DNA of 64,000 nt, taken from the NCBI GenBank assembly GCA_964017235.1, contig OZ024933.1, positions 6,017,962 to 6,081,961 on the forward strand, in the 5' to 3' direction. Every line of letters begins with the position of its first letter. Positions within the stretch are counted from its first letter, which is position 1. Below, piece after piece: positions 1-48,036 of this stretch. Made by a program: the position numbers and the translations under genes. The DNA is from Sabellastarte sp. h YS-2021 (taxonomy: Eukaryota; Annelida; Polychaeta; Sabellida; Sabellidae). Below the pieces are notes generated by a model. That model did not search any database and was not told where the DNA came from. It saw only the letters and a list, made by a program, of their open reading frames with translations.

Positions 1-975
1 TACTTTTGGGCTTTTCAGTAACTTCCATCATGAGTAAAATCTCTTGTAACTTAAAAACTATTGCATTTAGAGAATTTCGTATAAATATGTTATTCAGCTA
101 CTTTTGGGCCAGCTATAACATAGTAAAATTTCAGACCTGTAGCTCATGGCATAGCTGAGTAATAGCTACTTTTAGGTTATCACTGTTGAGTAAATCACTT
201 ATAACTTGAAAACTATTGCATTTAGAGTATTTTGTTTCATATGTTATTCACCTATTTTGGGGTCAGCTATAACATAGTGAAGTTTCAGACCTGTGGCTCA
301 TTTCATAGCTGAGTAATAGCTACTTTGAAGTTCTCACTGTTGAGTAAATCAGTTATAATTGGAAAACTATTGCATTTACAGAAATTTGTGCAAATATGTT
401 ATTCAGCTACTTTTGGGTCAGCTATAACATAGTGAAATTATAGACCTATAGCTCATGGCACAACTGAGCAATAGCTATTCTCAGGTACTGACTGTTGAGT
501 AAATCAGCTATAACTTGAAAAAGATTGTATTTGGAGTATTTTGTTAAAATATATTGTTCACCTACTTTTGGGTCAGCTATAACATAGTGAAATTACAGAC
601 CTATAGCTCATGGCATAGTGGAGCAATAGCTATTTTCAGGTTCTCACTATTGAGTAAATCAGTTGTAGCTTGAAAACTATTGCATTTACAGTAGTTTGCT
701 TAAATATGTTGTTCACCTACTTTTGGGTTAGCTATAACATAGTAAAATTTCAGACATGTAGCTCATTGCATAGATGAGTAATAGTTCCTTTGAGGTTCTC
801 ACTGTTGAGTAAATCAGTTGTAACTTGAAAACTATTACATTTAGAGTAATTTGTTAAATATGTTATTCACAGAATTTTTGGTCAGCTATAACATAGTGAA
901 ATTGCAGACCTCTATGTCATGGCATAGCTGAGCAATAGCTACTTTCAGGTTCTCACTGTTGAGTAAATCATTGTA
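1..975 (+). repeat. satA tandem array (155-bp monomers) in E1
   Basis: About six monomers sharing landmarks such as GCTATAACATAG, AGACCTGTAGCTCA and GAGTAATAGCTA, spaced about 155 bp. They are more diverged from each other than those in the middle of E2, as expected for the edge or for an older short array. No higher-order period is visible here. Confidence 0.9.
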
Positions 976-1180
976 TCCACTGGATAGCCGCAGTGTGTAG
1001 AGAGAGATTTCACCATTACTGCTTTGATGAAAAAAAATATTATAGCTAGCTTTCTTAAGTTTGCAGTATATATTAATAACCATAAAATGTTGTCTGGGAA
1101 TATTTTTGGCCTCATTTTGAGAAACAAGATGGCCGCCACAGGTGTTTTTTGTCAGTCATGAAAAGTGCTTATATCTCCCT
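976..1180 (+). other. Linker between satA and satB with a YY1-like motif
   Basis: Unique sequence joining the two satellite arrays in E1. It contains CAAGATGGCCGCC (about 1127-1139), close to the YY1 consensus. The same linker is present in inverted E3 (about 45735-45850) but has been lost in E2, where satA runs directly into satB near 11575. Confidence 0.7.
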
Positions 1181-1730
1181 TATTATTGATCCTAGAGGTT
1201 TGGGATGATAAACCAACCTGTAGGAAATCATGTGGTGGGAATCTTTTGGTGTGGTCAGATTTGACCTTCAATGACCCTTCAAGGTCAAACAAGGATAGCC
1301 AAACTTAAAAGTGCTTATAACTCGCTTATTATTGGTCCCAGAGGTTTGGGATGGTAAAAAGACAGGAAATCATGGGCTGTGAATCTGTTGATATGGTCCG
1401 ATTTGACCTTGGAACCCTCCTTCAAGGTCAAATGAGGATAGCGAAAATTGAAAGTGCCTACAACTCGCTTATTATTGGTGACAGAGATTTGGGATGGCAT
1501 AGGAAATCATTGGCTCGGAATCTTTTGGTGTGGTCAGATTTGACCTTTGGACCCCTCCTTCAAGGTCAAATGAGGACAGCCAAGCTTAAAAGTGCTTATA
1601 ACTCATTTATAATTGGTCCTAGAGGTTTGGAATGGTAAACCATAGGAAATCATGGGCTGGGAATGTATTTGTGTTGTTAGATTGGACCTTGGACCCCTTC
1701 TTCAAGGTCGAACGAGGATATTGCATTTGT
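1181..1730 (+). repeat. satB tandem array (147-bp monomers) in E1
   Basis: Four monomers with the landmarks TTATTATTGGT, TTTGGGATGG, AAATCATGGGCTGG and TTCAAGGTCAAA. The short open frames across this block on both strands are satellite artefacts. Confidence 0.88.
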
Positions 1731-1834
1731 AGTATTTCTTTAAATATGTTTTAACCTATTTTTTACACTTAAACAATTACCTTGTTATTTTCCTTCATAA
1801 TACCATTTACAGGGCACAACTTTTTTATCCTTTT

Positions 1835-2250
1835 TATGTCAGCTGACTTGTCAGTCAGCTGGCATTATGTCGTCACTCTGCGGCGTGGGCGTACGCGTAC
1901 GCGTCCGCGTGAACAACTTCTCCTCCAAAACTACAAGGCCTAGAGACGTGCTGTTTTTTTTAAAAGATACCTTATCTATCGAGGATGAAAAATTGTTCAA
2001 GGCATGCAAATCTGTCTGTTCGTCTGTTTGCTAGAGACATTACAAGGGGGGTACCCCCACCAAAAGTGTGAAAATTTCAACTTTTTATCACAATTTTCTC
2101 AGTGACTATTGCAGGGATTTCTCTCATATCTTGCATATATGTACTAGGCCAGAGGTAGATTCTCTTGTGTGAGTATGAGACCTGGATCTCTCTTACTTTT
2201 TTTTTAATGAATTTTTTTAATAATTTTTAATGCATTAACATTCATGAAAT
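1835..2250 (+). other. Left terminal module of E2
   Basis: Starts TTTTTATGTCAGCTGAC and holds two near copies of the self-complementary GTCAGCTGAC, which can also fold together. It continues into GCGTACGCGTACGCGTCCGC (about 1889-1908) and the perfect palindrome GGGGGTACCCCC (about 2047-2058). The same module in reverse complement closes E3 at 47625-48036. Confidence 0.8.
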
Positions 2251-5200
2251 CATGCAGAAAATCATTTATAACTTGAAAACTGTTGCATCTAGAGCATTTT
2301 GTTAAAATATGTTATTCAGCTACTTTTTTCATAGCTACAATATGGTGAGTAAGTTGGGTGCCTGTCTCAATAGCTAAGTGAGTAATAGCTACTTTTGGGC
2401 TTTTCAGTAACTTCCATCATGAGTAAAATCACTTGTAACTTAAAAACTATTGCATTTAGAGAATTTCGTATAAATATGTTATTCAGCTACTTTTGGGTCA
2501 GCTATAACATAGTAAAATTTTAGACCTGTAGCTCATGGCATAGCTGAGTAATAGCTACTTTTACGTTATCACTGTTGAGTAAATTGCTTATAACTTCAAA
2601 ACTATTGCATTTAGAGAATTTCGTATAAATATGTTATTCAGCTACTTTTGGGTCAGCTATAACATAGTAAAATTTCAGACCTGTAGCTCATGGCATAGCT
2701 GAGTAATAGCTACTTTTAGGTCATCACTATTGAGCAAATCGCTTATAACTTGGAAACTATTGCATTTACAGTATTTTGCTGAAATATGTTGTTCACCTAC
2801 TTTTGGGTCAGCTATAACATAGTAAAATTTCAGACCTGTAGCTCATGGCATAGCTGAGTAATAGCTACTTTTAGGTCATCACTATTGAGTAAATCAGTTG
2901 TAACTTGAAAACTATTGCATTTACAGTATTTTGCTTAAATATGTTGTTCACCTACTTTTGGGTCAGCTATAACATAGTGAAATTTCAGACCTGTAGCTCA
3001 TTGCATAGCTGAGTAATAACTACTTTGAGGTTCTCACTATTGAGTAAATCAGTTGTAATTGGAAAAGTATTGCATTTAGAGAATTTAGTATAAATATGTT
3101 ATTCAGCTACTTTTGGGTCAACTATAACATAGTAAAATTTCAGACCTGTAGCTCATGGCATAGCTGAGTAATAGCTACTTTTAGGTCATCACTATTGAGT
3201 AAATCAGTTGTAACTTGAAAACTATTGCATTTACAGTATTTTGCTTAAATATGTTGTTCACCTACTTTTGGGTCAGCTATAACATAGTAAAATTTCAGAC
3301 CTGTAGCTCATGGCATAGCTGAGTAATAGCTACTTTTAGGTCATCACTATTGAGTAAATCAGTTGTAACTTGAAAACTATTGCATTTACAGTATTTTGCT
3401 TAAATATGTTGTTCACCTACTTTTGGGTCAGCTATAACATAGTAAAATTTCAGACCTGTAGCTCATTGCATAGCTGAGTAATAGCTACTTTTAGGTTATC
3501 ACTGTTGAGTAAATCGCTTATAACTTGGAAATTATTGCATTTAGAGTATTTTGTTTCAATATGTTATTCACCTATTTTGGGGTCAGCTATAATATAGTGA
3601 AGTTCCAGACCCGTGACTCATTGCATAGCTGAGTAATAGCTACTTTTAGATTATCACTGTTGAGTAAATCGCTTATAACTTGGAAACTATTGCATTTAGA
3701 GTATTTTGTTTCAATATGTTATTCACCTATTTTGGGATCAGCTATAACATAGTGAAGTTTCAGATCTGTGGCTCATTGCATAGCTGAGTAATAGCTACTT
3801 TGAAGTTCTCACTATTGAGTAAATCAGTTGTAATTGGAAAACTATTGCATTTAGAGAATTTCGTATAAATATGTTATTCAGCTACTTTTGGGTCAGCTAT
3901 AACATAGTAAAATTTCAGACCTGTAGCTCATGGCATAGCTGAGTAATAGCTACTTTTAGGTCATCACTATTGAGTAAATCAGTTGTAACTTGAAAACTAT
4001 TGCATTTACAGTATTTTGCTTAAATATGTTGTTCACCTACTTTTGGGTCAGCTATAACATAGTAAAATTTCAGACCTGTAGCTCATGGCATAGCTGAGTA
4101 ATAGCTACTTTTAGGTCATCACTATTGAGTAAATCAGTTGTAACTTGAAAACTATTGCATTTACAGTATTTTGCTTTAATATGTTGTTCACCTACTTTTG
4201 GGTCAGCTATAACATAGTGAAATTTCAGACCTGTAGCTCATTGCATAGCTGAGTAATAACTACTTTGAGGTTCTCACTATTGAGTAAATCAGTTGTAATT
4301 GGAAAAGTATTGCATTTAGAGAATTTAGTATAAATATGTTATTCAGCTACTTTTGGGTCAACTATAACATAGTAAAATTTCAGACCTGTAGCTCATGGCA
4401 TAGCTGAGTAATAGCTACTTTTAGGTCATCACTATTGAGTAAATCAGTTGTAACTTGAAAACTATTGCATTTACAGTATTTTGCTTAAATATGTTGTTCA
4501 CCTACTTTTGGGTCAGCTATAACATAGTAAAATTTCAGACCTGTAGCTCATGGCATAGCTGAGTAATAGCTACTTTTAGGTCATCACTATTGAGTAAATC
4601 AGTTGTAACTTGAAAACTATTGCATTTACAGTATTTTGCTTAAATATGTTGTTCACCTACTTTTGGGTCAGCTATAACATAGTAAAATTTCAGACCTGTA
4701 GCTCATTGCATAGCTGAGTAATAGCTACTTTTAGGTTATCACTGTTGAGTAAATCGCTTATAACTTGGAAATTATTGCATTTAGAGTATTTTGTTTCAAT
4801 ATGTTATTCACCTATTTTGGGGTCAGCTATAACATAGTGAAGTTCCAGACCCGTGACTCATTGCATAGCTGAGTAATAGCTACTTTTAGGTTATCACTGT
4901 TGAGTAAATCGCTTATAACTTGGAAACTATTGCATTTAGAGTATTTTGTTTCAATATGTTATTCACCTATTTTGGGATCAGCTATAACATAGTGAAGTTT
5001 CAGATCTGTGGCTCATTGCATAGCTGAGTAATAGCTACTTTGAAGTTCTCACTATTGAGTAAATCAGTTGTAATTGGAAAACTATTGCATTTAGAGAATT
5101 TCGTATAAATATGTTATTCAGCTACTTTTGGATCAGCTATAACATAGTAAAATTTCAGACCTGTAGCTCATGGCATAGCTGAGTAATAGCTACTTTTAGG

Positions 5201-8200
5201 TCATCACTATTGAGTAAATCAGTTGTAACTTGAAAACTATTGCATTTACAGTATTTTGCTTAAATATGTTGTTCACCTACTTTTGGGTCAGCTATAACAT
5301 AGTAAAATTTCAGACCTGTAGCTCATGGCATAGCTGAATAATAGCTACTTTTAGGTCATCACTATTGAGTAAATCAGTTGTAACTTGAAAACTATTGCAT
5401 TTACAGTATTTTGCTTTAATATGTTGTTCACCTACTTTTGGGTCAGCTATAACATAGTGAAATTTCAGACCTGTAGCTCATTGCATAGCTGAGTAATAAC
5501 TACTTTGAGGTTCTCACTATTGAGTAAATCAGTTGTAATTGGAAAAGTATTGCATTTAGAGAATTTAGTATAAATATGCTATTCAGCTACTTTTGGGTCA
5601 ACTATAACATAGTAAAATTTCAGACCTGTAGCTCATGGCATAGCTGAGTAATAGCTACTTTTAGGTCATCACTATTGAGTAAATCAGTTGTAACTTGAAA
5701 ACTATTGCATTTACAGTATTTTGCTTAAATATGTTGTTCACCTACTTTTGGGTCAGCTATAACATAGTAAAATTTCAGACCTGTAGCTCATGGCATAGCT
5801 GAGTAATAGCTACTTTTAGGTTATCACTGTTGAGTAAATCGCTTATAACTTGGAAATTATTGCATTTAGAGTATTTTGTTTCAATATGTTGTTCACCTAT
5901 TTTGGGGTCAGCTATAACATAGTGAAGTTCCAGACCCGTGACTCATTGCATAGCTGAGTAATAGCTACTTTTAGGTTATCACTGTTGAGTAAATCGCTTA
6001 TAACTTGGAAACTATTGCATTTAGAGTATTTTGTTTCAATATGTTATTCACATATTTTGGGATCAGCTATAACATAGTGAAGTTTCAGATCTGTGGCTCA
6101 TTGCATAGCTGAGTAATAGCTACTTTGAAGTTCTCACTATTGAGTAAATCAGTTGTAATTGGAAAACTATTGCATTTAGAGAATTTCGTATAAATATGTT
6201 ATTCAGCTACTTTTGGGTCAGCTATAACATAGTAAAATTTCAGACCTGTAGCTCATGGCATAGCTGAGTAATAGCTACTTTTAGGTCATCACTATTGAGA
6301 AAATCAGTTGTAACTTGAAAACTATTGCATTTACAGTATTTTGCTTAAATATGTTGTTCACCTACTTTTGGGTCAGCTATAACATAGTAAAATTTCAGAC
6401 CTGTAGCTCATGGCATAGCTGAGTAATAGCTACTTTTAGGTCATCACTATTGAGTAAATCAGTTGTAACTTGAAAACTATTGCATTTACAGTATTTTGCT
6501 TTAATATGTTGTTCACCTACTTTTGGGTCAGCTATAACATAGTGAAATTTCAGACCTGTAGCTCATTGCATAGCTGAGTAATAACTACTTTGAGGTTCTC
6601 ACTATTGAGTAAATCAGTTGTAATTGGAAAAGTATTGCATTTAGAGAATTTAGTATAAATATGTTATTCAGCTACTTTTGGGTCAACTATAACATAATAA
6701 AATTTCAGACCTGTAGCTCATGGCATAGCTGAGTAATAGCTACTTTTAGGTCATCACTATTGAGTAATCAGTTGTAACTTGAAAACTATTGCATTTACAG
6801 TATTTTGCTTAAATATGTTGTTCACCTACTTTTGGGTCAGCTATAACATAGTAAAATTTCAGACCTGTAGCTCATGGCATAGCTGAGTAATAGCTACTTT
6901 TAGGTCATCACTATTGAGTAAATCAGTTGTAACTTGAAAACTATTGCATTTACAGTATTTTGCTTAAATATGTTGTTCACCTACTTTTGGGTCAGCTATA
7001 ACATAGTAAAATTTCAGACCTGTAGCTCATTGCATAGCTGAGTAATAGCTACTTTTAGGTTATCACTGTTGAGTAAATCGCTTATAACTTGGAAATTATT
7101 GCATTTAGAGTATTTTGTTTCAATATGTTATTCACCTATTTTGGGGTCAGCTATAACATAGTGAAGTTCCAGACCCGTGACTCATTGCATAGCTGAGTAA
7201 TAGCTACTTTTAGGTTATCACTGTTGAGTAAATCGCTTATAACTTGGAAACTATTGCATTTAGAGTATTTTGTTTCAATATGTTATTCACATATTTTGGG
7301 ATCAGCTATAACATAGTGAAGTTTCAGATCTGTGGCTCATTGCATAGCTGAGTAATAGCTACTTTGAAGTTCTCACTATTGAGTAAATCAGTTGTAATTG
7401 GAAAACTATTGCATTTAGAGAATTTCGTATAAATATGTTATTCAGCTACTTTTGGGTCAGCTATAACATAGTAAAATTTCAGACCTGTAGCTCATGGCAT
7501 AGCTGAGTAATAGCTACTTTTAGGTCATCACTATTGAGAAAATCAGTTGTAACTTGAAAACTATTGCATTTACAGTATTTTGCTTAAATATGTTGTTCAC
7601 CTACTTTTGGGTCAGCTATAACATAGTAAAATTTCAGACCTGTAGCTCATGGCATAGCTGAGTAATAGCTACTTTTAGGTCATCACTATTGAGTAAATCA
7701 GTTGTAACTTGAAAACTATTGCATTTACAGTATTTTGCTTTAATATGTTGTTCACCTACTTTTGGGTCAGCTATAACATAGTGAAATTTCAGACCTGTAG
7801 CTCATTGCATAGCTGAGTAATAACTACTTTGAGGTTCTCACTATTGAGTAAATCAGTTGTAATTGGAAAAGTATTGCATTTAGAGAATTTAGTATAAATA
7901 TGTTATTCAGCTACTTTTGGGTCAACTATAACATAATAAAATTTCAGACCTGTAGCTCATGGCATAGCTGAGTAATAGCTACTTTTAGGTCATCACTATT
8001 GAGTAATCAGTTGTAACTTGAAAACTATTGCATTTACAGTATTTTGCTTAAATATGTTGTTCACCTACTTTTGGGTCAGCTATAACATAGTAAAATTTCA
8101 GACCTGTAGCTCATGGCATAGCTGAGTAATAGCTACTTTTAGGTCATCACTATTGAGTAAATCAGTTGTAACTTGAAAACTATTGCATTTACAGTATTTT

Positions 8201-11200
8201 GCTTAAATATGTTGTTCACCTACTTTTGGGTCAGCTATAACATAGTAAAATTTCAGACCTGTAGCTCATTGCATAGCTGAGTAATAGCTACTTTTAGGTT
8301 ATCACTGTTGAGTAAATCGCTTATAACTTGGAAATTATTGCATTTAGAGTATTTTGTTTCAATATGTTATTCACCTATTTTGGGGTCAGCTATAACATAG
8401 TGAAGTTCCAGACCCGTGACTCATTGCATAGCTGAGTAATAGCTACTTTTAGGTTATCACTGTTGAGTAAATCGCTTATAACTTGGAAACTATTGCATTT
8501 AGAGTATTTTGTTTCAATATGTTATTCACCTATTTTGGGATCAGCTATAACATAGTGAAGTTTCAGATCTGTGGCTCATTGCATAGCTGAGTAATAGCTA
8601 CTTTGAAGTTCTCACTATTGAGTAAATCAGTTGTAATTGGAAAACTATTGCATTTAGAGAATTTCGTATAAATATGTTATTCAGCTACTTTTGGGTCAGC
8701 TATAACATAGTAAAATTTCAGACCTGTAGCTCATGGCATAGCTGAGTAATAGCTACTTTTAGGTCATCACTATTGAGTAAATCAGTTGTAACTTGAAAAC
8801 TATTGCATTTACAGTATTTTGCTTAAATATGTTGTTCACCTACTTTTGGGTCAGCTATAACATAGTAAAATTTCAGACCTGTAGCTCATGGCATAGCTGA
8901 GTAATAGCTACTTTTAGGTCATCACTATTGAGTAAATCAGTTGTAACTTGAAAACTATTGCATTTACAGTATTTTGCTTTAATATGTTGTTCACCTACTT
9001 TTGTGTCAGCTATAACATAGTGAAATTTCAGACCTGTAGCTCATTGCATAGCTGAGTAATAACTACTTTGAGGTTCTCACTATTGAGTAAATCAGTTGTA
9101 ATTGGAAAAGTATTGCATTTAGAGAATTTAGTATAAATATGTTATTCAGCTACTTTTGGGTCAACTATAACATAGTAAAATTTCAGACCTGTAGCTCATG
9201 GCATAGCTGAGTAATAGCTACTTTTAGGTCATCACTATTGAGTAAATCAGTTGTAACTTGAAAACTATTGCATTTACAGTATTTTGCTTAAATATGTTGT
9301 TCACCTACTTTTGGGTCAGCTATAACATAGTAAAATTTCAGACCTGTAGCTCATGGCATAGCTGAGTAATAGCTACTTTTAGGTTATCACTGTTGAGTAA
9401 ATCGCTTATAACTTGGAAATTATTGCATTTAGAGTATTTTGTTTCAATATGTTATTCACCTATTTTGGGGTCAGCTATAACATAGTGAAGTTCCAGACCC
9501 GTGACTCATTGCATAGCTGAGTAATAGCTACTTTTAGGTTATCACTGTTGAGTAAATCGCTTATAACTTGGAAACTATTGCATTTAGAGTATTTTGTTTC
9601 AATATGTTATTCACCTATTTTGGGATCAGCTATAACATAGTGAAGTTTCAGATCTGTGGCTCATTGCATAGCTGAGTAATAGCTACTTTGAAGTTCTCAC
9701 TATTGAGTAAATCAGTTGTAATTGGAAAACTATTGCATTTAGAGAATTTCGTATAAATATGTTATTCAGCTACTTTTGGGTCAGCTATAACATAGTAAAA
9801 TTTCAGACCTGTAGCTCATGGCATAGCTGAGTAATAGCTACTTTTAGGTCATCACTATTGAGAAAATCAGTTGTAACTTGAAAACTATTGCATTTACAGT
9901 ATTTTGCTTAAATATGTTGTTCACCTACTTTTGGGTCAGCTATAACATAGTAAAATTTCAGACCTGTAGCTCATGGCATAGCTGAGTAATAGCTACTTTT
10001 AGGTCATCACTATTGAGTAAATCAGTTGTAACTTGAAAACTATTGCATTTACAGTATTTTGTTTAATATGTTGTTCACCTACTTTTGGGTCAGCTATAAC
10101 ATAGTGAAATTTCAGACCTGTAGCTCATTGCATAGCTGAGTAATAACTACTTTGAGGTTCTCACTATTGAGTAAATCAGTTGTAATTGGAAAAGTATTGC
10201 ATTTAGAGAATTTAGTATAAATATGTTATTCAGCTACTTTTGGGTCAACTATAACATAGTAAAATTTCAGACCTGTAGCTCATGGCATAGCTGAGTAATA
10301 GCTACTTTTAGGTCATCACTATTGAGTAAATCAGTTGTAACTTGAAAACTATTGCATTTACAGTATTTTGCTTAAATATGTTGTTCACCTACTTTTGGGT
10401 CAGCTATAACATAGTAAAATTTCAGACCTGTAGCTCATGGCATAGCTGAGTAATAGCTACTTTGAGGTTATCACTGTTGAGTAAATCGCTTATAACTTGG
10501 AAATTATTGCACTTAGAGTATTTTGTTTCAATATGTTATTCACCTATTTTGGGGTCAGCTATAACATAGTGAAGTTCCAGACCCGTGACTCATTGCATAG
10601 CTGAGTAATAGCTACTTTGAAGTTCTCAATGTTGAGTAAATCACTTGTAATTTGAAAACTATTGCAGTTAGAGAATTTAGTATAAATATGTTATTCAGCT
10701 ACTTTTGGGTCAGCTATAACATAGTAAAATTTCAGACCTGTAGCTCATGGCATAGCTGAGTAATAGCTACTTTTAGGTTATCACTGTTGAGTAAATCACT
10801 TATAACTTGAAAACTATTGCATTTAGAGTATTTTGTTGCAATATGTTATTCACCTATTTTGGGGTCAGCTATAACATAGTGAAGTTCCAGACCTGTGGCT
10901 CATTGCATAGCTGAGTAATAGCTACTTTGAAGTTCTCACTGTTGAGTAAATCAGTTGTAATTGGAAAACTATTGCCTTTACAGAAATTTGTGCAAATATG
11001 TTATTCAGCTACTTTTGGGTCAGCTATAACATAGTGAAATTACAGACCTGTAGCTCATGGCACAACTGAGCAATAGCTATTCTCAGGCACTGACTGTTGA
11101 GTAAATCAGCTATAACTTGAAAAATATTGCATTTGGAGTATTTTGTTAAAATATATTGTTCACCTACTTTTGGGTTAGCTATAACATAGTGAAATTACAG

Positions 11201-11575
11201 ACCTATAGCTCATGGCATAGCGGAGCAATAGCTATTTTATGGTTCTCACTATTGAGTAAATCAGTTGTAACTTGAAAACTATTGCATTTACAGTATTTTG
11301 CTTAAATATGTTGTTCCGCTACTTTTAGGTCAGCTATAACAGAGCAAAAATTCAGACATGTAGCTCATTGCATAGCTGAGTAATAGTTACTTTGAGGTTC
11401 TCACTGTTGAGTAAATCAGTTGTAACTTGAAAATTATTACATTTACAGTATTTTGTTAAATATGTTATTCACAGACGTTTTGGTCAGCTATAACATAGTG
11501 AAATTGCAGACCTCTATGTCATGGGATAGCTGAGTAATAGCTTCTTTCAGGTTCTCACTGTTGAGTAAATCATTG
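2250..11575 (+). repeat. satA array of E2 with higher-order repeats
   Basis: About 60 monomers of 155 bp. Diagnostic monomer variants recur at long spacing: GGGTCAACTATAAC begins at 3115, 4355, 5595, 6680, 7919, 9158 and 10242 (spacings 1240, 1240, 1085, 1239, 1239, 1084), and the variant AGTTCCAGACCCGTGACTCA begins at 3601, 4841, 5926, 7165, 8404, 9489 and 10573. The array is therefore built of 8-monomer and 7-monomer units. Flanking monomers near both edges are more diverged and lack the unit structure. No gene is present. Confidence 0.92.
3115..10640 (+). repeat. Higher-order repeat core of satA (1240/1085-bp units)
   Basis: Within each unit the stretch from the AGTTCCAGACCCG monomer to the next GGGTCAAC monomer is constant at 753-754 bp, while the other stretch is about 486 bp (three monomers) or 331 bp (two). 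Unit order is long, long, short, long, long, short, short. Private variants are shared between units, for example GAGAAAATCAG near 6297, 7536 and 9859 and a one-base-deleted GAGTAATCAG near 6762 and 8001, showing recent unit-level amplification. Confidence 0.9.
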
Positions 11576-12540
11576 TATCCAACCTGTAGGAAATCATGGG
11601 CTGGGAATCTGTTAATATGGTCCGATTTGACCTTGGAACCCTCCTTCAAGGTCAAATGAGGATAGCCAAAAATAAAAGTGCTTATAACTCGCTTATTATT
11701 GGTCCCAGAGGTTGGAATGAAAACCAACCTATAGAAAATCATGAGCTGGGAATTTTTTGGTGTGGTCGGATTTCACCTTAGACCCCTCCTTCAAGGTCAA
11801 ATGAGGATAGCCAAACTTAAAAGTGCTTGAAATAACTTGAAAAATATTGCATTTGGAGTATTTTGTTAAAATATATTGTTCACCTACTTTTGGGTTAGCT
11901 ATAACATAGTGAAATTACAGACCTATAGCTCATGGCATAGCGGAGCAATAGCTATTTTATGGTTCTCACTATTGAGTAAATCAGTTGTAACTTGAAAACT
12001 ATTGCATTTACAGTATTTTGCTTAAATATGTTGTTCAGCTACTTTTAGGTCAGCTATAACAGAGCAAAAATTCAGACATGTAGCTCATTGCATAGCTGAG
12101 TAATAGTTACTTTGAGGTTCTCACTCTTGAGTAAATCAGTTGTAACTTGAAAATTATTACATTTAGAGTATTTTGTTAAATATGTTATTCAGAGACGTTT
12201 TGGTCAGCTATAACATAGTGAAATTGCAGACCTCTATGTCATGGGATAGCTGAGCAATAGCTTCTTTCAGGTTCTCACTGTTGAGTAAATCATTGTATCC
12301 AACCTGTAGGAAATCATGGGCTGGGAATCTGTTAATATGGTCCGATTTGACCTTGGAACCCTCCTTCAAGGTCAAATGAGGATAGCCAAACATAAAAGTG
12401 CTTATAACTCGCTTATTATTGGTCCCAGAGGTTGGAATGAAAACCAACCTATAGAAAATCATGAGCTGGGAATTTTTTGGTGTGGTCGGATTTCACCTTG
12501 GACCCCTCCTTCAAGGTCAAATGAGGATAGCCAAACTTAA
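11120..12540 (+). repeat. 720-bp tandem duplication across the satA/satB junction
   Basis: The block from about 11120 to 11830 is repeated nearly exactly at about 11840-12545, offset 720 bp. Each copy holds diverged satA monomers followed by satB monomers, so the junction itself was duplicated. Paired short frames at 11488-11742 and 12208-12462 (minus) only reflect this duplication. Confidence 0.85.
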
Positions 12541-13540
12541 AAGTGCTTATAACTCATTTATTATTGGTCCTAGAGGTTTCGAATGGAAAACCAACCTATA
12601 GAAAATCATGGGCTGGGAATCTTTTGGTGTGGTCGGATTTGACCTGGGACCCCTCCTTCAAGGGCAGTTGAGGATAGCCAAACTTACAATTGCTTAGAAC
12701 TCGCTTATTATTGGTCCTACAAGTTTGGGATGGTAAACAAGCTACAGGAAATCATGGGCTGGGAATTTTTTTGTGTGGTCGAATTTGACCTTGGACCCCC
12801 TCCTTCCAGGTCAAACGAAGATAGCCAAACTTAAAGTGCTTATAACTCGCGTATTATTGGTCTTGGAGGTTTGGGATGGTAAACCAACATATAGGAAATC
12901 ATGGGCTGGGATTCTTTTGGTGTGGTCAGATTTGACCTGGGACCCCTCCTTCAAGGGCAGTTGAGGATAGCCAAACTTACAATTGCTTAGAACTCGCTTA
13001 TTATTGGTCCTACAAGTTTGGGATGGTAAACAAGCTACAGGAAATCATGGGCTGGGAATTTTTTTGTGTGGTCGGATTTGACCTTGGACCCCCTCCTTCC
13101 AGGTCAAACGAAGATAGCCAAACTTAAAGTGCTTATAACTCGCATATTATTGGTCTTGGAGGTTTGGGATGGTAAACCAACATATAGGAAATCATGGGCT
13201 GGGATTCTTTTGGTGTGGTCAGATTTGACCTGGGACCCCTCCTTCAAGGGCAGTTGAGGATAGCCAAACTTACAATTGCTTAGAACTCGCTTATTATTGG
13301 TCCTACAAGTTTGGGATGGTAAACAAGCTACAGGAAATCATGGGCTGGGAATTTTTTTGTGTGGTCGGATTTGACCTTGGACCCCCTCCTTCAAGGTCAA
13401 ACAAGGATAGCCAAACTTAAAAAGTGCCTATAACTCACTTATTATTGGTCCGAGAGGTTTGGGATGGTAAACCATCCTAAATTCTTTGGCTGGGAATCTT
13501 TTGGTATGGTCAGATTTGACCTTTGGACCCCTTCTTCATG
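11580..13540 (+). repeat. satB array of E2, including a 293-bp dimer
   Basis: About 13 monomers of about 147 bp. Between about 12650 and 13400 two distinguishable monomers alternate as a 293-bp dimer repeated about 2.5 times: identical 63-codon frames begin at 12773 and 13066. No gene. Confidence 0.85.
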
Positions 13541-14002
13541 GTGGAACGAGGATATTGCATTTATAGTATTTCTTTAAATATTTTAACCTACTTTTTACCC
13601 TTAAACAATTACCTTGTTACTTTATTTCATAATACCATTTGCAGGGCACAACTTTTTTGTCGTTTTCTTCTGTCAGCTTCGGAATATCTTTCGAACATGC
13701 TGTTCAGTTACCATTTACTGTATTTCTGTACAGCCCTTTCCCTGATAATTATGCTTTCCTCTCATTATCACCATCACAAATCAAAAACATTCAGTCAGCT
13801 GACACAGTGCCCGTTCACGGGCACTCTCCTCTTGTCTTCTGTCAGCTTCGGAATTTCTTTCGAACTTGCTGTTCAGTTACCATTTACTGTATTTCTGTAC
13901 AGCCCTTTTCCTGATAATTATTCTGTCCTGTAATCACCTTCACAAATCAAAAACACTCAGTCAGCTGACACAGTGCCCGTTCACGGGCACTCTCCTCTTG
14001 TT
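13541..14002 (+). other. Right terminal region of E2 with duplicated terminus
   Basis: After a unique tail (GGGCACAACTTTTTTGTC), a module of about 168 bp occurs twice in tandem (about 13667-13834 and 13835-14002). Each copy begins TCTTCTGTCAGCTTCGGAAT and ends with AGTCAGCTGACA, the hairpin GTGCCCGTTCACGGGCAC (7-bp stem, 4-nt loop) and TCTCCTCTTG. The 136-codon frame at 13523-13933 only reads through this repeat. Confidence 0.8.
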
Positions 14003-14337: not shown

Positions 14338-14751
14338 TAATTAAGCGTCCCTTGAAAAGGGGACGCTTATTGGTTTCACCCCCGGTTTTCAGTCAGCCGC
14401 CGCCGCCGCCGCAGCCGCCGCCGCATTATCGTCTCCCTTGAATATCTCCCTTGTTATTAGGCCTATCCAAATGATATGTGGCAGTGTTCTTCTATAGACG
14501 TGGGGAAATTTTTTGACAGGCATAAATTTGACCTTTGACCTTTATGAAGGTCACATCAAAAATTCAAAAAAAAATTTACTTCCTTTTCACTAGATTTCCT
14601 CAGAAAGTACTGCGTGTGGGTCAACCAAATTTGGTATGCACATTCCTGAGGGAAGAATCTAGGCGCCAGTCGATATTGGGATCAGTCGGGCCATAATTGA
14701 CCGATTGACGGGTGATTGATTATAAGTTCATAAAAATTTTGCTAAGATTAA

Positions 14752-17387
14752 ACCTTGAACTCGCTTATTATTGGTCGTAGAGGTTTGGGATGGTATACCA
14801 ACATATAGGAAATCATGTGCTGGGAATCTTCTGGTGTGGTCAGATTTGACCTTGAGCCCCTCGTTCAAGGTCAAGCGAGGATAGGCAAAGTTTAAAGTGC
14901 TTATAACTCACTTATTATTGGTCCTAGAGGTTTGGGATGGTATACCAACATATAGGAAACCATGGGCTGGGAATCTTTTGGTGTGGTCAGATTTGACCTT
15001 GGACGTCTCCTTCAAGGTCAAACGAGGATAGGCAAACTGAAAAGTGCTTATAACTCGCTTGTTATTAGTCCTAGAGGTTTGGGATGGTATACCAACATAT
15101 AGGAAATCATGTGCTGGGAATCTTCTGGTGTGGTCGCATTTGACCTTGGGCCCCCCCTTCAAGGTCAAACGAGCATAGCCAAACTTAAAAGTACTTATAA
15201 CTCGCTTATTATTGGTCGTAGAGCTTTGGGATGGTATACCTACATATAGGAAATCATGTGCTGGGAATCTTCTGATGTGGTCGGATTTGACCTTGGGCCT
15301 CTCGTTCAAGGTCAAACGAGGATAGCCAAACTTAAAAGTGCTTATAACTCGCTTATTATTGGTCGTAGAGCTTTGGGATGGTATACCGACATGTAGAAAA
15401 TCATGGGCTGGGAATCTTCTGGTGTGGTTGCATTTGACCTTGGGCCCCTCCTTCAAGGTCAAACGAGCATAGGCAAAGTTTAAAGTGCTTATAACTCGCT
15501 TATTATTGGTCCTAGAGGTTTGGGATGGTATACCAACATATAGGAAATCATGTGCGGGGAATCTTCTGGTGTGGTCGGATTTGACCTTGGGCCCATCCTT
15601 CAAGGTCAAACGAGGATAGCCAAACTTAAAAGTCCTTATAACTCGCTTATTATTGGTCGTAGAGCTTTGGGATGGTATACCGACATATAGGAAATCATGT
15701 GCTGGGAATCTTCTGGTGTGGTCGCATTTGACCTTGGGCCCATCGTTCAAGGTCAAACGAGGATAGCCAAACTTAAAAGTACTTATAACTCGCTTATTAT
15801 TGGTCGTAGAGCTTTGGGATGGTATACCTACATATAGGAAATCATGTGCTGGGAATCTTCTGGTGTGGTTGGATTTGACCTTGGGCCTCTCGTTCAAGGT
15901 CAAATGAGGATAGCCAAACTTAAAAGTGCTTATAACTCGCTTATTATTGGTCGTAGAGCTTTGGGATGGTATACCTACATATAGGAAATCATGTGCTGGG
16001 AATCTTCTGGTGTGATCGCATTTGACCTTGGGCCCATCCTTCAAGGTCAAACGAGGATAGCCAAACTTAAAAGTACTTATAACTCGCTTATTATTGGTCG
16101 TAGAGCTTTGGGATGGTATACCTACATATAGGAAATCATGTGCTGGGAATCTTCTGATGTGGTCGGATTTGACCTTGGGCCTCTCGTTCAAGGTCAAACG
16201 AGGATAGCCAAACTTAAAAGTGCTTATAACTCGCTTATTATTGGTCGTAGAGCTTTGGGATGGTATACCGACATATAGGAAATCGTGCTGGGAATCATCT
16301 GGTGTGGTTGCATTTGACCTTGTGCCTCTCGTTCAAGGTCAAACAAGGATAGCCAAACTTAAAAGTGCTTATAACTCGCTTATTATTGGTCGTAGAGCTT
16401 TGGGATGGTAGACCAACATATAGGAAATCATGTGCAGGGAATCTTCTGGTGTGGTCAGATTTGACCTTGGGCCCCTCCTTCAAGGTCAACCGTGGATAGG
16501 CAAAGTTTAAAGTGCTTATAACTCGCTTATTATTGGTCTTAGAGGTTTGGGATGGTATACCAATATGTAGGAAACCATGGGCTGGGAATCTTTTGGTGTG
16601 GTCAGATTTGACCTTGGGCCTCTCCTTCAAGGTCAAACGAGGATAGCCAAACTGAAAAGTGCTTATAACTCGCTTATTATTAGTCCTAGAGGTTTCGGAT
16701 GGTATACCAACATGTAGGAAATCATGTGCTGGGAATCTTCTGGTGTGGTCGCATTTGACCTTGGGCCCCCCCTTCAAGGTCAAACGAGCATAGCCAAACT
16801 TAAAAGTGCTTATAACTCGCTTATTATTGGTCCTAGAGCTTTGGGATGGTATACCAACATATAGGAAATCATGGGCTGGGAATGTTTTGGTGTGGTCGGA
16901 TATGACCTTGGGCCCCTCCTTGAAGGTCAAATGAGGATAGCCAAACATAAAAATGCTCATAACTCGCTTATTATTGGTCCTAGAGCTTTGGGATGGTAAA
17001 CCAACATGTAGGAAATCATTGGCTGGGAACCTTCTGGTGTGGTCGGATTTGAGCTTGGGCCCCACGTTCAAGGTCAAACGAGCATAGCCACACTTAAAAG
17101 TGATTAGAACTCGCTTATTATTGGTCCTAGAGGTTTGGGATGGTATACCAGCATATACAAAATCATGGGCTGGGAACCTTCTGGTGTGGTCGCATTTGAC
17201 CTTGGGCCTCTCATTGAAGGTGAAATGAGCATAGCCAAGCTTAAAAGTGGTTATAATTCGCTTATTATTGGTCCTACAGGTTTGTGATGGTATACCAGCA
17301 TATAGGAAATCATGGGCTGGGAATCTTCTGGTGTGGTCGTATTTGACCTTGGGCCTCTCGTTTAAGGTCAAACGAGCATAGCCAAAC
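14752..17387 (+). repeat. satB array of E0, left block
   Basis: About 18 monomers at 147-bp spacing (TTTGGGATGG at 14932, 15079, 15226 and onward). Because 147 is divisible by three, minus-strand frames stay open through many monomers (14908-16197, 429 codons; 16295-17407, 370 codons), giving a 49-residue repeat rich in K and R. I treat these as satellite by-products, not genes. Confidence 0.9.
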
Positions 17388-19157: not shown

Positions 19158-19161
19158 TTAA

Positions 19162-20645: not shown

Positions 20646-20690
20646 TTTGCAGCTTAAAAGACACAGTCAGCTGATACAGAACCTGTTCAC

Positions 20691-24664: not shown

Positions 24665-24715
24665 CCTGTGGGCGACTCACGGGCACCCTACACTCCTCAC
24701 TGAGCCTCTAGAATA

Positions 24716-28300: not shown

Positions 28301-31300
28301 TGTCTCTGATAGGTTCCCAGATTTTGAAAAACCAAATCCAGACTAGTAAACCAAGGTCCTCAAAAGTATTAAAATGTTGTTTTTCGTAAACAACATAGGT
28401 GAAACCAAATATTCAATTAAAATTTTTCTTGAATAATTGTCATCCACTGTTTTGTCACTGTGATATTATTGTGTAGGAAAGGTTTATTTTTCCTGCAAAC
28501 AATTTTGGCATCTAATGGCAGGCAGTCACCTCTGTGTAGGTTTGACTCTCACAGGTGACAAATACTGACTGCCTGTCCAATATAGTCTGGTTGGTGAACG
28601 GGACGTTAAACCCCAACTTTGACTTTGTCCCGCAAACAATTGTTAATGTTTTGTTTTTGTTTTAAAAGTGATCTAACCTACAAACTCAATGCGTATATTA
28701 TATTTGTTTGATTGAAATTCATCCAGAAATGAGGGAGATAATGTTAAGTTAAAAATTTCATACTCAAGAAATAAAGGCGATATCAGTAGTGAGTAAATCA
28801 TTTGGCTGTGTGCGTATCGATATTGAATGTAAAAATGTTAAATATCAGCCAATATCGAGGGTGTGATGTTCTCTACTAAATAGTTTGAATCCGGGATACC
28901 AAAAATGTTTTTGTTTTAGCATATCCCAAACCACTAACAGGAAATGAACTTTACCAAAAGAGAACATGACAGTTTTAAACTATCAAAATACAAGATAAAA
29001 GAGGACAAATTTTACTCAATTTAGACTTTTTTCAAATATTTACAGTGTAAGTTTACAATTTTACTTACAATGGCGATACTGTCTTTGAACATCAATACCC
29101 ATGACCATATCCCAAAACAGTATCGCCAATATCGATAAATGATGTACCTCTCTAGATATCAGGATTTGAAAATTTTAAGGAAGAGTAAAACATTTAATGA
29201 CAATATTTGTGGATGTCAGAGATGTGCTGTTAACAGGTCTGCACTCTAACAAAGGACTAGATGTCCAGTCAAGGAGAAATTACGCTGTTTTTGTTGCTAG
29301 TTATAAAGGGTTGCTAATGTTCTGGTATATCTCAGTTTTACCCCACAGCCCTTAAGGGCTGTCGGGGTATTGTTTTCACCCATGGTGTCCGGGTGGGCGG
29401 GCGGCGGGAAATAGTTTGTCCGGGCTATATCTCAGAAACTGTAAGGTGTAGGAAGTTCATACTTGGCAGGGACATTGGTTGGGGGGTGTAGGTGTGCAAC
29501 GTCATGGTCTGACCTTGATTTGACCTTTGACCTTGCCGTAGTGGCCTTGAGTTTGAAAATCTTGTCCGGGCTATATCTCGGCAACCATAAGGTGTAGGAA
29601 GTTGATACTTGACAGGGACATTAGTTGGGGGTTGTAGGTGTGCAACGTCATGGTCTAACCTTGATTTGACCTTGTGGTAGTGACCTTGACCTATAAAACC
29701 TTGTCCGGGCTATATCTCAGCAACTATAAGGTGTAGGAAGTTGATACTTGGTCGGGACATTGGTTAGGGGGTGTAGGTGTGCTACGTCATAGTTTGACCT
29801 TTGACCTTGCCGTAGTGAACTTGACCTATAAAACCTGGTCCGGGCTATATCTTGGAAACCGTAAGAGGTGTAGGAAGTTGATACTTGGTAGGGACATTGG
29901 TTTGGGGGTGTAGGTGTGCTATGTCATAGTGTGACTTTGATTTGAACTTGCTGTAGTGACCTTGACCTATAAAATCTTGTCCAGGCTATATCTCAGAGAC
30001 TGTAAGGTGTAGGAAGTTTATACTTGGTAGGGACATTGGTTGAGGGCTTTAGGTGTGCCACATCATGGTGTGACACTGATTGACCTTTGACCTTGCTATA
30101 TTGACCTTTAAAATCTTGTTGCACCTTTAAGTCTGTCTGTTGATGCAGATTAAGTACTGTTAAAGTCATATTAGAATTCATTAAGAATTTCCTTTTGCAA
30201 GTTCCCATTGTAACAGATGGAATTTCATCAAGTGAGCCACAGGCTTTTCTCCAACACCACACATAAGCATCATTGAATGTATTGCCACTTCTGTATGCAT
30301 GGGTAATATTCAAAACATCCAAACCCTAATTCGGCCATTTTTGGTTTACTGATCAATGCTGTCATTTTGTTATTGAATTGTCTTGTTTTAATACTTCATC
30401 TTTACATACATTTCTTTTCCTTAGATATTATTTTCTCTACTTAAGCATTATTTGGACCTTAATATAACTGACACTGCTCTGAAAGTATCTTGAACTTTGT
30501 ACTGTTACACTACTTCTATATCTCATGGTGTTGAAAAATATTTCCCCAGGCTGTGGGGTACGGGCATCTCTGATGCTATTTTTAATCTTTTCCTTGATGT
30601 AGTACATCAGATATCATCAATGTGAAAACGGCTAAAGGTCTGGCATTGCAAGACATTCTTACAGAGGTCCATCTGTATGTACACAGAAGTAAGTACTTAC
30701 TGTCAATCTAGTATTGATTTTCTCAGCAAATTGGGTCTCTTCACGAGTTTGAACAAAAGTAAGTCAGCCAATGAACATTTGGCCAATCAGGATGACTGTT
30801 ACAATTGTATAGCTTTGTAAGCTGTATGTTGATTGGTCATCTGCAATATCGAGATGCTGATTTAAGTACTAATTCCATTATCACCCCTTAAAGCCATCTT
30901 AAAAGGTTATCATTCCAATCACAGGCAGTGATCGTCAAGTACCTCTGAAAAATGGAGTCCAACGGAGTACATCACCTCGAAAAAATGGATTTCCAATCAT
31001 TTTTTTCGGAGTCCTGTGTTATAGTTTGCAGTAAAATCAACAGTATGATTAACCTAAGATTTTAATAGGTCAGAGTTCAACAGCTAGGCTCATAGTGTCA
31101 AACGCCCTTTTCAGATTACACAAACTGCAGATCACTCATGATTGATGTTTGGTTTTTTGAAAATCCCTGCAACCATTTGTGAATGTGGTCCTTTTTCCAA
31201 GCTTTCTTGCAATACATGAGTCATACTGAAGTCAGATAAATTGAGATTATCTTGTCCATGTTTCCTGTATTTTTTTTTGTCAATAATCTTACATATTCTT

Positions 31301-34838: not shown

Positions 34839-34874
34839 ATGACAGGATTAAGACTGTTTGCATATGGTCATTGT

Positions 34875-36980: not shown

Positions 36981-36984
36981 GGTC

Positions 36985-37653: not shown

Positions 37654-37665
37654 AGAGGATTTCAC

Positions 37666-40526: not shown

Positions 40527-40564
<38 letters not shown>

Positions 40565-43878: not shown

Positions 43879-44455
43879 TATACATAATAGTATTACAAAC
43901 TCAAATTCCGTGCAATATAAAATCTATTAAACTCATGACTGAAGCCATCAGTAATGCATATATAAACTTCTGGCCAGCATGGCATTTGATGCAATGTAAA
44001 GCAATCAAAGCATTAGAAATTATAAATATTAAATTACCCTTGACAAAAAATAATCAAGGCAGAAAGATGACTGACAAGCAAAAAAGTAAAGGTCTGTTCA
44101 CACTGTTCCGTGTGGCCAATTCACGACCTTGACTTTATTATTCTGTAAATGGACCCTGGATGTAGAAAAACAAGCCTCCCATTTAAGCGATCCCACCTCC
44201 AATTTGCCTCCTGCCTGCAGTTCCTCAGAGGACATAACTTGATAGTGCTGTGAGATCGTTTAGAATGTCTGGTTCAATGTTTGGTAGGTATACAAGCCAG
44301 CGAAGTTTGATCTAGTTCATACGTTGAAACAACGTTTTCAAACCCAGTAAAAAGCACAGAAATCAAACATAAAATCTTGTCACTTTGTTGAAAATTTGCT
44401 AAAAATATAAAGTGCATGTATATTTTGAATAAATTTCCCCATATTTTCAAAACAA
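43879..44455. other. Intergenic, no feature recognised
   Basis: Unique-looking sequence next to E3; no gene supported. Confidence 0.4.
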
Positions 44456-44689
44456 GCAATCAGTGCCCATGAACGGGCTCTTTGTCAGCTGACTGTGTGT
44501 TTTGAGTTTCAGAATAGAAGTGACAGAAGAAAAGGACACAAAAGTTGTGCCCTGGAAATGGTGTTCAGAAGGAAAGTAAGAAGTAACTCTTAAGGTGTAA
44601 AAAGTAAGTTAAAACACATTTAAAGAAATGCAATAGTTTTAATTCTACTATGTAATAGCTGACCGAAAAATAGGTGAATAACATACTGA

Positions 44690-45735
44690 AATTAGACCTA
44701 TCACATCGGAGAACTGATGCAAATTGTATGCACCAGAAAGAATCCTCACCAAAGCCATTAAAACATGCTTAAAATTGGAAAAGCCCAAACTGAAATCTGA
44801 CCATATCAAAAGATTCTTAGCCCATGATTCCTATAGGTTGGTGTGACATTGCAAACCTCTAGGAACACAAATAAGCGAGATATAAGCATGGTTAATTTGG
44901 GCCAAAGATCAAACCTGATCACATCAAAAAATTCCCAGCCCATGATTTGACATTGCAAACCTCTGGAACCAATAATAAGCCAGTTATGAACACTTTTAAG
45001 TTAGGCTATCCTCGTTTGACCTTGGAGGAAGGTTCCAAGGTCAAATTCGACAACACCAAAAAATTCCCAGCCCATGATTTTCTATAGGTTGGTTTACCAT
45101 TCCAAACCTCTAGGACCAATAATAAACGAGTTATAAGCACTTTTAAGTTTGGCTATCCTCATTTACCTTAAAGGCGGGGTCCAACGTCAAATCCGACCAC
45201 ACCAAAAGATTCCCAGCCCATGATTTCTTAAAGGTTGGTTTACCATCCCAAACCTCTAGGACCCATAATAAGCGAGTTATAAGCACTTTTAAGTTTGGCT
45301 ATCCTCGTTTAACCTTGAAGGAGGGGTCCAAGGTCAAATCTGACCACCCCAAAAGAATCCAAGCCAATGATATCCTATAGGTTGGTTTACCATCCCAAAC
45401 CTGTAGGACCAATAATAAGTGAGTTATAAGCACTTTTAAGTTTGGCTATCCTATTTGACCTTGAAGAAGGGGTCCCAGGTCAAATCCAACAACACCAAAA
45501 GACTCCCAGCCCATGATTTCCTATAGCTTGGTTTACCATCCCAAACCTGTAGGACCAGTAATAAGCGACTTATAGGCACTTTTAAGTTTGACTATCCTCG
45601 TTTGACCTTGAATGAGGGGTCCAAGGTCAAATTTGACCACACCAAAAGATTCCCAGTCCATGATTTTCTATACATTGGTTTACCATCCCAAACCTCTAGG
45701 CCCAATAGTAAGGGAGATATCAGCACTTTTCATGA
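44690..45735 (-). repeat. satB array of E3
   Basis: About seven diverged 147-bp monomers, each with a GACCTTGGA-type half site. Confidence 0.88.
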
Positions 45736-45849
45736 CTGACAAAGAAACACCTGTGGCGGCCATCTTGTTTTGTTCAAAACGAGGCCAAAAATATTTCCAG
45801 TCAAAATTTTATAATGAAGAACATATCCTGCTATCCGGTGGATAAAACT

Positions 45850-47625
45850 AAATAATTTAAATGCAATAGTTTTCGAGTTACAAGTGATTTACTCAACAGC
45901 GATAACCTAAAAGTAGCTATTACTCAGCTATACCATGAGCTACAGGTCTGAAATTTTACTATGTTATAGCTGACCCAAAAGTAGCTGAATAACATATTTA
46001 CACAAACTTCTCTAAATGCAATACTTTTCAAGTTACAAGTGATTTTACTCATGATGTAAGTTACTGAAAAGTCCAAAATAGCTATTACTCACTTAGCTAT
46101 TGAGATAGATACAGTAGTTACTCACCATGTTGTAGCTATTTAAAATGTAGCTGAATAACATATTTTAACAAAATGCTGTAAATGCAATACTTTTCAAGTT
46201 ATAATTGATTTAGTGTTAAGTAAGAACCTCAAAGTAGCTATTACTCAGCTATGCAATGAGCCACAGCTCTGGAATTTTACTATGTTATAGCTGACCCCAA
46301 AATAGGTGAATAACATATGAAACTAAATAATCTAAATACAATACTTTTCAAGTTATAAGTGATTTACTCAACAGTGATAACCTAACAGTAGCTATTACTC
46401 AGCTATGCCATGAGCTACAGGTCTGAAATTTTACCATGTTAAAGCTGACCCAAAAGTAGCTGAATAACATATTTACACAAAATGCTGTAAATGCAATACT
46501 TTTCAAGTTATAAATGATTTAGTGTTGAGTAAGAACATCAAAGTAGCTATTATTCAGCTATGCAATGAGCTACAGGTCTGAGATTTTACTATGTTATATC
46601 TGACCCCAAAGTAGCTGAATAACATATTTACACAAAAGTCTCTAAATTCAATATTTTTCAAGTTATAAATGATTTAGTGTTGAGTAAGAACCTCAAAGTA
46701 GCTATTACTCAGCTATGCAATGAGCCACAGCTCTGGAATTTTACTATGTTATAGCTGACCCGAAAATAGGTGAATAACATATTGAAACTAAATACTCTAA
46801 ATGCAATACTTTTCAAGTTATGAGTGATTTACTCAACAGTGATAACCTAAAAGTAGCTATTACTCAGCTATGCCATGAGCTACAGGTCTGAAATTTTACT
46901 ATGTTATAGCTGACCCAAAAGTAGCTGGATAACATATTTACACATAATTCTCTAAATGCAATACTTTTCAAGTTATAAGTGATTTACTCAACAGTGATAA
47001 CCTAAAAGTAGCTATTACTCAGCTATGCCATGAGCTACAGGTCTGAAATTTTACTATGTTATAGCTGACCCAAAAGTAGCTGAATAACATATTTACACAA
47101 AATTCACTAAATGCAATACTTTTCAAGTTATAAATGATTTAGTGTTGAGTAAGAACCTCAAAGTAGCTATTACTCAGCTATGCAATGAGCCACAGCTCTG
47201 GAATTTTACTATGTTATAGCTGACCCCAAAATAGGTGAATAACATATGAAACTAAATACTCTAAATGCAATAGTTTTCAAGTTATGAGTGATTTACTCAA
47301 CAGTGATAATCTAAAAATAGCTATTACTCGGCTATGCCATCAGCTACAGGTCTGAAATTTTACTATGTTATAGCTGACCCAAAAGTAGCTAAATAACATA
47401 TTTGTACAAAATTCTCTAAATGCAATACTTTTCAAGTTACAAGTGATTTTACTCATGATGGAAGTTACTGAAAAGTCCAAAAGTAGCTATTACTCACTTA
47501 GCTATTGAGATAGACACCCAAGTTACTCACCATGTTGTAGCTATGAAAAAAGTAGCTGAATAACATATTTTAACAAAATGTTCTAATTGCAATAATTTTC
47601 AAGTTATAATTGATTTAGTGCATGA
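45850..47625 (-). repeat. satA array of E3 with 465-bp trimer units
   Basis: About 11 monomers. The variant GAGCCACAGCTCTGGAATTT recurs with its CCACAG at 46261, 46725 and 47190 (spacings 464 and 465), so monomers amplified as trimers here, unlike the 7/8-mers of E2. Confidence 0.85.
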
Positions 47626-48036
47626 TTTCATGAATTTTAATGTATTAAAAATTATTTTAAAAATTCATAAAAAAATAATTAAGAAAGATCCAGGTCTGAC
47701 ACTCACACAAGGGAATCTACTAGTGGTCTAGTACATATATGCAAGATATGAGAGAAATCCCTGTAATAGTCACTGAGAAAATTGTGATCAAGTGTTGAAA
47801 TTTTCACACTTTGGTGGGGGTACCTCACTTGTAATGGCTCTGGCGAACAGACAGATCTGCATGAATTTTACGATTTATCATCCTCGATAGTTAAGGTATC
47901 TTTTAAAAAAAACAGCATGTCTCTGGGTCTTGTAGTTTTGGAGAAGAAGTTTGTCACGCGGACGCGTACACAGACGCGGACGCCGCAGAGTGATGCCATA
48001 ATGTCAGCTGACTGACAAGTCAGCTGACATAAAAAA

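Follow-up and report, generated by a model that had tools for sequence, protein, structure and literature searches.

Two satellite families carried between the ends of a HINE-type element in a sabellid annelid, with satA arrays of about 10 to 286 monomers

Introduction

Helentron-associated elements (HINEs) of oysters carry one or, exceptionally, two successive tandem arrays, including unrelated ones, the longest given for them being 29.3 monomers (PMC7492417). The satellite CgiSat01 of Crassostrea gigas likewise lies mainly inside Helitron/Helentron elements, in arrays of a wide length range that include some long ones; the longest element-associated array reported there has 89 monomers, and an array of 232 monomers stands alone and contains a gap (PMC8268682). 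HINE/DINE-1 elements described from a mite, Culex and Drosophila are non-coding and have subterminal inverted repeats (subTIRs), a 3' stem-loop, a T-rich target and, in some cases, internal tandem repeats (PMC4067079), and a 2025 review presents the expansion of arrays within Helitron/Helentron elements as a common way in which satellites arise (PMC12628747). Here we analyse a stretch of 64,000 nucleotides from Sabellastarte sp. h YS-2021 (C7:6017962-6081961 of a 1.786-Gb genome; hereafter the window), in which E1, E2 and E3 are copies of a single non-coding element that carries two tandem repeats, satA (155 bp) and satB (147 bp). The Pearl elements CvA, CvE, CvG and DINE-TR1 resemble the present element, by description, in having central tandem repeats able to become satellites, and differ from it in having one array type. 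Their names are those used in PMC11136912.

The annelid element has much in common with the oyster elements called Cg_HINE as PMC7492417 describes them: a subTIR with a complementary inverted repeat, a GTCY-type microsatellite, a 3' palindrome, an oligo-T target without target duplication, monomers that are mostly 140-180 bp long and keep one orientation, two successive arrays, and no autonomous partner found. An original prediction, made from the letters of the window, had called a two-satellite cargo less described; this is not supported, two consecutive arrays being present in each of the Crassostrea gigas elements Cg_HINE_10_13 and Cg_HINE_11_12 (PMC7492417). What differs is scale and internal structure. 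Against the oyster maximum of 29.3 monomers, satA arrays here have 20-86 monomers in 25 exact-match copies and up to 286, there are higher-order repeats, and the satA/satB boundary is duplicated; unlike the standalone CgiSat01 array, the one of 286 monomers lies between both ends of one element. The two-array kind of HINE is therefore already known. An array of 286 monomers enclosed by both ends and a comparison of sister copies go beyond it, no published counterpart having been found in the open-access literature. We consider it very probable that the copies form one family of non-autonomous Helentron-type HINEs, whose founder held satA and satB, inherited as a unit, and whose interior changes by whole monomers and blocks.

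Structure of E1, E2 and E3

A tandem-array scan of the window and the mapping of six E2/E1 modules onto it revealed a common order in all three copies: a left palindrome module, satA, satB and a right module with a hairpin. This order, the presence of both satellites and the large differences in array size had been predicted and were borne out. E2 is a complete HINE-type element of 12,001 bp on the plus strand (1834-13834), as judged from its ends, the lack of a target duplication and the empty site regained in E1. Its 5' subTIR, TGTCAGCTGACT (1837-1848), is the first arm of the left hairpin, and a GTCY-type microsatellite is visible by eye in the left module (2011-2030). The internal order is satA60-satB2-satA3-satB9. 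An array of 60 satA monomers (2249-11577), the interior of which consists of 7/8-mer higher-order repeats according to monomer typing, is followed by a short satB block (11579-11816) and a short satA block of three monomers (11833-12297), which together represent the duplicated boundary, and then by the main satB array of 8.5 monomers (12299-13554). A pre-right unique segment (13555-13666) leads to the right module (13667-13834), which contains the 3' subTIR AGTCAGCTGACA (13793-13804) and the hairpin GTGCCCGTTCACGGGCAC (13807-13824).

E1, also on the plus strand, begins upstream of the window: its left end lies at L054:6433, and a fetched flank (L054:6433-7462) contains the left module and the remainder of a satA array of 10 monomers, the 3' six of which occupy 16-975. 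A satA-satB linker (976-1160), re-matched within the window only in E3, and a satB array of 3.8 monomers (1161-1720) precede a pre-right unique segment (1721-1833) that is interrupted by E2. E3 is a complete older copy of 3,580 bp on the minus strand (44453-48032), with about 11 satA monomers (45847-47616), part of the linker (45731-45831), 6.4 satB monomers (44793-45730) and a variant right end, GGGCACTGATTGCTTG. The predicted satA counts (6 or more in E1, 60 in E2 and 11 in E3) hold within the window, E1 being corrected to 10 by its upstream part and E2 having three extra monomers. For satB, predicted at about 4, 13 and 7, the array lengths in monomers are 3.8, 1.6 + 8.5 and 6.4, and the predicted linker is present in E1 and E3 and absent from E2.

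E2 is nested inside E1. Because of this insertion two right modules stand in tandem, that of E2 and, pushed aside by it, E1's own (13835-14000, plus strand). Excision of E2 leaves E1 with ATCCTTT joined to TCTTCTGTCAGC, compared with GTCCTTTTCTTCTGTCAGC or GTCGTTTTCTTCTGTCAGC in six copies (E2 and the fetched copies L033-L037). The rejoined site has four T, exactly as in those six, and a single A/G difference close by.

Ends and target site

The left end of E2, TTATGTCAGCTGACTTGTCAGTCAGCTG, and its right end, AGTCAGCTGACACAGTGCCCGTTCACGGGCACTCTCCTCTTG, both fold into hairpins far better than shuffled sequences do (z -4.73 and -4.79, respectively). Between them the subTIRs form a perfect 12-bp inverted pair, in addition to the 5' hairpin and the 3' hairpin of 18 nt. 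The HINE rule given in PMC4067079 is for subTIRs of 12-15 bp that lie 2-4 nt from the 5' end and about 38-60 nt from the 3' end. In E2 the 5' copy lies 3 nt from the end, in line with this rule, and the 3' copy begins 42 nt from the other end; we count this placement as agreeing, despite a near edge at 30 nt, slightly below the range. The 3' palindrome, expected 8-35 nt from the end, is 10 nt away from it. All three nested insertions that were examined by eye (E2 in E1, and L034 and L037 in satA-like arrays) lie within a run of 4-5 T, a T-rich target with T on both sides, as in HINEs. Each adds a net TT without duplicating the target, the empty sites for L034 and L037 being sibling monomers of the host arrays. 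No open reading frame of at least 150 aa is present in E2, as expected of a non-coding HINE at that cut-off. As in the two-array Cg_HINE elements, two satellite families stand in tandem and in the same orientation within a single pair of ends in six of seven fetched elements, L034 having satA only. A canonical Helitron has CTRR at its 3' end. It inserts between A and T (PMC4067079), whereas the present element ends in CTCCTCTTG and inserts within T runs. The 12-bp subTIRs, the 3' hairpin and the oligo-T insertion without target duplication thus fit a HINE.

Copies in the genome and their satA arrays

The left end is represented genome-wide by 595 exact places of a 48-mer (292 + 303 by strand) and the right end by 6,726 exact places of a 45-mer (3,340 + 3,386), while reversed control patterns of both gave no match. 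A search with the left module yielded 1,335 candidates, the best 40 of which are all 100% identical (rounded). Exact right ends outnumber exact left ends by eleven to one; other or diverged elements therefore use the right end. On C1 up to 34.85 Mb, a right end on the same strand lies 4.9-14.8 kb from seven of eight left ends; the corresponding controls were a fraction of 0.020 of random points within 15 kb and none of eight on the opposite strand. The ends thus do co-occur elsewhere, and the predicted mobile element with both satellites as cargo is upheld by this pairing and by five fetched stretches, all of which hold satA and four of which hold satB. The modules are in order in all seven fetched elements, five of which had been selected by their paired ends, and satB is present in six.

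The satA core has 66,164 exact places and the satB core 39,908. We counted clusters in the first 4 Mb of C1, with listed satA places up to 3.99 Mb and listed satB places up to 3.76 Mb. Multi-hit satA clusters (at least two core hits) were followed by satB and/or the exact right end in 8 of 10 cases, compared with 2 of 9 single-hit places; thus, satA mostly shows the order of the element. The exact right end itself lies downstream of 5 of the 10 multi-hit clusters. The exact left 48-mer precedes only one of them, and most therefore have diverged or other left ends.

Whole copies differ widely in satA content. There are 23 monomers in L033, 28.5 in L034, 35 in L035, 34 in L036 and 32 in L037. 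These five were chosen because their exact left and exact right ends lay 4.9-6.8 kb apart, a choice biased towards short arrays. Two further copies were chosen for their abundance of marker copies, a choice biased towards long arrays. One is the sister of E2, an element of 18.2 kb at C7:118.65 Mb in which 98 monomers were cut and the total is about 100; the other is an element on C5 (90.22-90.27 Mb) of 46.0 kb with 286 monomers. In their single-copy modules E2, the sister and the C5 element differ at 2 of 683-689 sites per pair (0.29%). E1, with its 10 monomers, is 3.8% from E2 and E3, with about 11, is 12.8% from it, so that both are older and short; we claim no age trend, length having been the basis on which the long copies were chosen. 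A range of about 10 to 286 satA monomers within one young family is unusual, and it illustrates the way in which a mobile element can give rise to satellite DNA.

Among 100 listed of the 595 left ends, 25 have E2's duplicated boundary downstream (exact left 48-mer and exact junction 40-mer), and the inferred satA counts range from 20 to 86 with a median of 33. The 25 array spans share one 155-bp phase (Rayleigh R 0.74; 20 within 8 bp, three far out), compared with a maximum R of 0.67 in 100,000 random sets and 0.07-0.44 for five other periods. Array size thus differs by whole monomers. The duplicated satB-satA junction of E2 has 186 exact copies genome-wide. At some places it recurs two or three times at 720-bp spacing (C1:159624688-159626167, C1:94833518-94834277 and C2:40628842-40629601), apparently as a higher-order repeat of both satellites, and a satA variant is repeated four times at 619-bp spacing at C8:79900061-79901964, apparently another higher-order period.

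Monomer order within the arrays

When monomers were typed at a 5% cut, five of eight whole young arrays (L033, L035, L036, L037 and C5) started with A-E-G-C-C. The last five types are those of E2 in seven of the eight including E2 itself, that is, in six of the seven others, with L034 as the exception. The first eight types are identical in five of the seven loci L002-L008, while L005 and L007 depart from them only in the final type or through a first one that was missed. Between these edges the interior is rearranged in blocks, the higher-order repeat of E2 consisting mostly of 8-mers and that of the sister mostly of 7-mers. E2 and the sister share an odd right side of 2,460 bp with 5 substitutions, as well as a junction monomer type found only in these two at a 2% cut. 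Their flanks differ, and they are therefore separate insertions of a common source.

Proposed mechanism and alternatives

In the mechanism that we propose, the subTIRs and the 3' hairpin would be the substrates of a Helentron protein produced elsewhere, and everything between the element ends would be copied, presumably by a rolling-circle step, into an oligo-T target. The founder would already have held satA and satB arrays and passed them on as a unit. Edge monomers would stay largely fixed, whereas the interior would grow and shrink by whole monomers and by blocks of several. The likeliest cause of these changes, some of which would come before and some after the separation of copies, is unequal exchange or replication slippage between near-identical repeats.

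Several observations weigh against this account, the first of which come from the search for an autonomous partner. A Helitron Rep model has matches at 24 places in the genome. L015 was extended by 5.6 kb upstream and 9.9 kb downstream and eight other Rep loci by a further 7 kb downstream, with 1.5-kb flanks at the remaining 15; upstream flanks beyond 1.5 kb were covered for L015 only. The Rep/helicase element with the same ends that the original prediction proposed to look for was not found at any of the 9 of 24 Rep loci extended downstream (7-10 kb). Several of the HINE/DINE-1 elements treated in PMC4067079 differ in having Helentron partners with near-identical ends. The 1.5-kb flank of L029 contains the right end and satB, and the flanks of L030 and L031 contain a partial left module (83%) directed away from Rep. 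We read these end sequences as neighbours rather than partners: the right end at L029 is on the strand opposite Rep and comes with satB, and a composite element therefore inserted nearby.

The Rep loci L012, L014, L015 and L017 belong to one Rep family (about 99% alike over 2-3.5 kb) and have an RGSPH motif, which fits the Helentron signature in PMC4067079. L015 combines Rep with a PIF1 helicase and an endonuclease match slightly below the cut-off. Arrays resembling satA or satB occur near L010, L013 and L020, and L009 and L011 have weaker such stretches nearby. The left module is represented near L010 and L013 by 57 bp of its tail. As in the oyster, the enzyme of the family would presumably be that of a Helentron. 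L028 and L029 (C4:175.90-175.91 Mb) are Rep fragments 98% alike, and the similarity of L029 ends at the composite right end; they are apparently an empty/filled pair.

The other contrary points concern the elements themselves. The right-end folds of E3 (z -0.47) and of E0, a further satB array in the window (z -0.96), are no better than those of shuffled sequences. E2, the sister and L034 do not start with A-E-G-C-C, the first monomers common to the other whole young arrays; L034, besides lacking satB, has different last monomers. Of the satB clusters in the first 4 Mb of C1, 19 of 28 are without satA upstream, so that the possibility that the satellites occur mostly apart from these termini is half realised: it holds for satB and not for satA. 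While satA arrays are mostly in the order of this element, satB also has other homes, such as E0.

The timing of array change can be approached through the units of the higher-order repeats. A possible but doubtful alternative is that array length is set at birth, by slippage or template switching in rolling-circle copying, and changes little after landing. The 60, about 100 and 286 monomers of E2, the sister and C5 would agree with this, since their module divergence leaves little time for growth in place. Divergence, calculated from units conforming to a single pattern (6 of E2, 11 of the sister and 18 of C5), is 0.48% within E2 and 0.48% between E2 and the sister. The units of E2 are no nearer to each other than to those of the sister, and E2 itself therefore carries no indication of having grown since the split, a further difficulty for our account and a point for array length fixed at birth. 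By contrast, units are closer within the sister (0.32%) than between the two copies, and closer within C5 (0.50%) than between C5 and E2 or the sister (0.73-0.76%): additional amplification is apparent within the sister and within C5, and not within E2. One variant is present in three E2 units and six sister units, so that at least two unit types, and some amplification, preceded the split. Another is present in 6 of 13 sister units and in none of E2, and occurs singly at nine other places. Variants have thus been amplified in one sister copy and not in the other, that is, differentially. The unit distances and this variant suggest continued amplification, without dating it to after landing.

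We also considered private markers as proof of growth in place. A stretch present seven times in E2 and absent from the other compared copies was rejected as such a marker, as its 40-mer occurs at 76 places: 12 of 19 loci have it once, and the other seven have it in blocks of 2 to 30. Other E2 markers and the sister's marker also occur elsewhere, which shows differential amplification and not growth confined to one site, and likewise counts among the contrary points. The prediction that the satellites expand after landing is therefore partly supported. For it are the whole-monomer differences at 0.29% module divergence and the one-sided amplification of a variant; on the other side, some amplification preceded the split, and change at the time of transposition is possible.

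Long near-identical arrays are hard to assemble, and the arrays of 286 and about 100 monomers, judged from the assembly, might be assembly artefacts. This is improbable: the 44.3-kb array of C5 is free of N, keeps a monomer spacing of 154-156 bp along its whole length, has the usual monomers at its edges and consists of varied blocks, not of one copied block. Repeated capture of the satellites from free arrays by a common set of ends would draw on the abundance of satA and satB cores and on the location of two of five fetched elements (L034 and L037) in satA-like arrays. We hold it to be very improbable, given the last monomer types common to six of seven fetched elements and the 186 copies of the E2-type junction, which fit one founding array. 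That classical satellite arrays merely adjoin unrelated repeats, with no composite mobile unit, would suit the prevalence of satB without satA and the excess of exact right ends, and is scarcely credible, being contradicted for satA by precise ends with empty sites, by ordered modules in all seven fetched elements (five chosen by paired ends) and by the paired left ends.

Within a family of HINEs descended from one founding array, we put forward one further idea tentatively, at somewhat less than even confidence. Amplified higher-order arrays may travel as cargo, at least two and probably many units having been transposed to yield E2 and its sister, each of which would then have changed quickly, and one copy would now be a 44-kb satellite within intact transposon ends. 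If so, the family would be a satellite nursery with all stages from 10 to 286 monomers. The origin and growth of satellites are usually inferred from finished arrays, while here there are hundreds of young copies with common ends and edge monomers. Each insertion is a replicate datable by its single-copy ends, and the rates and modes of array growth could therefore be measured in one genome or population.

Other features of the window

E0, on the plus strand, was predicted to have satB only and a related right end. It does have a single satB array, split by an insertion into 18 (14758-17387) and 10 monomers (19158-20626), and its right end (20656-20705) is a more distant variant of the right module with a weak hairpin. 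The insertion (17392-19157; 1.77 kb) has TTAA on both sides and ends in AGGTCATRGG, as seen by eye, and we take it to be piggyBac-like. To the left of the satB array, 14341-14757 contains the palindrome AAGCGTCCCTTGAAAAGGGGACGCTT and is unlike the left module of E1-E3. E0 may combine the left end of one HINE family with the right end of another.

A third tandem repeat of about 139-146 bp forms arrays on both strands at 29416-30087, 55168-55796 and 58387-59025, as judged by comparing units by eye. On the minus strand, 22046-24676 holds an open frame of 876 aa with endonuclease and reverse transcriptase domains, resembling a non-LTR (long terminal repeat) retrotransposon. Finally, there are unbroken runs of 32 C at 40530-40561 and of 39 C at 49662-49700.

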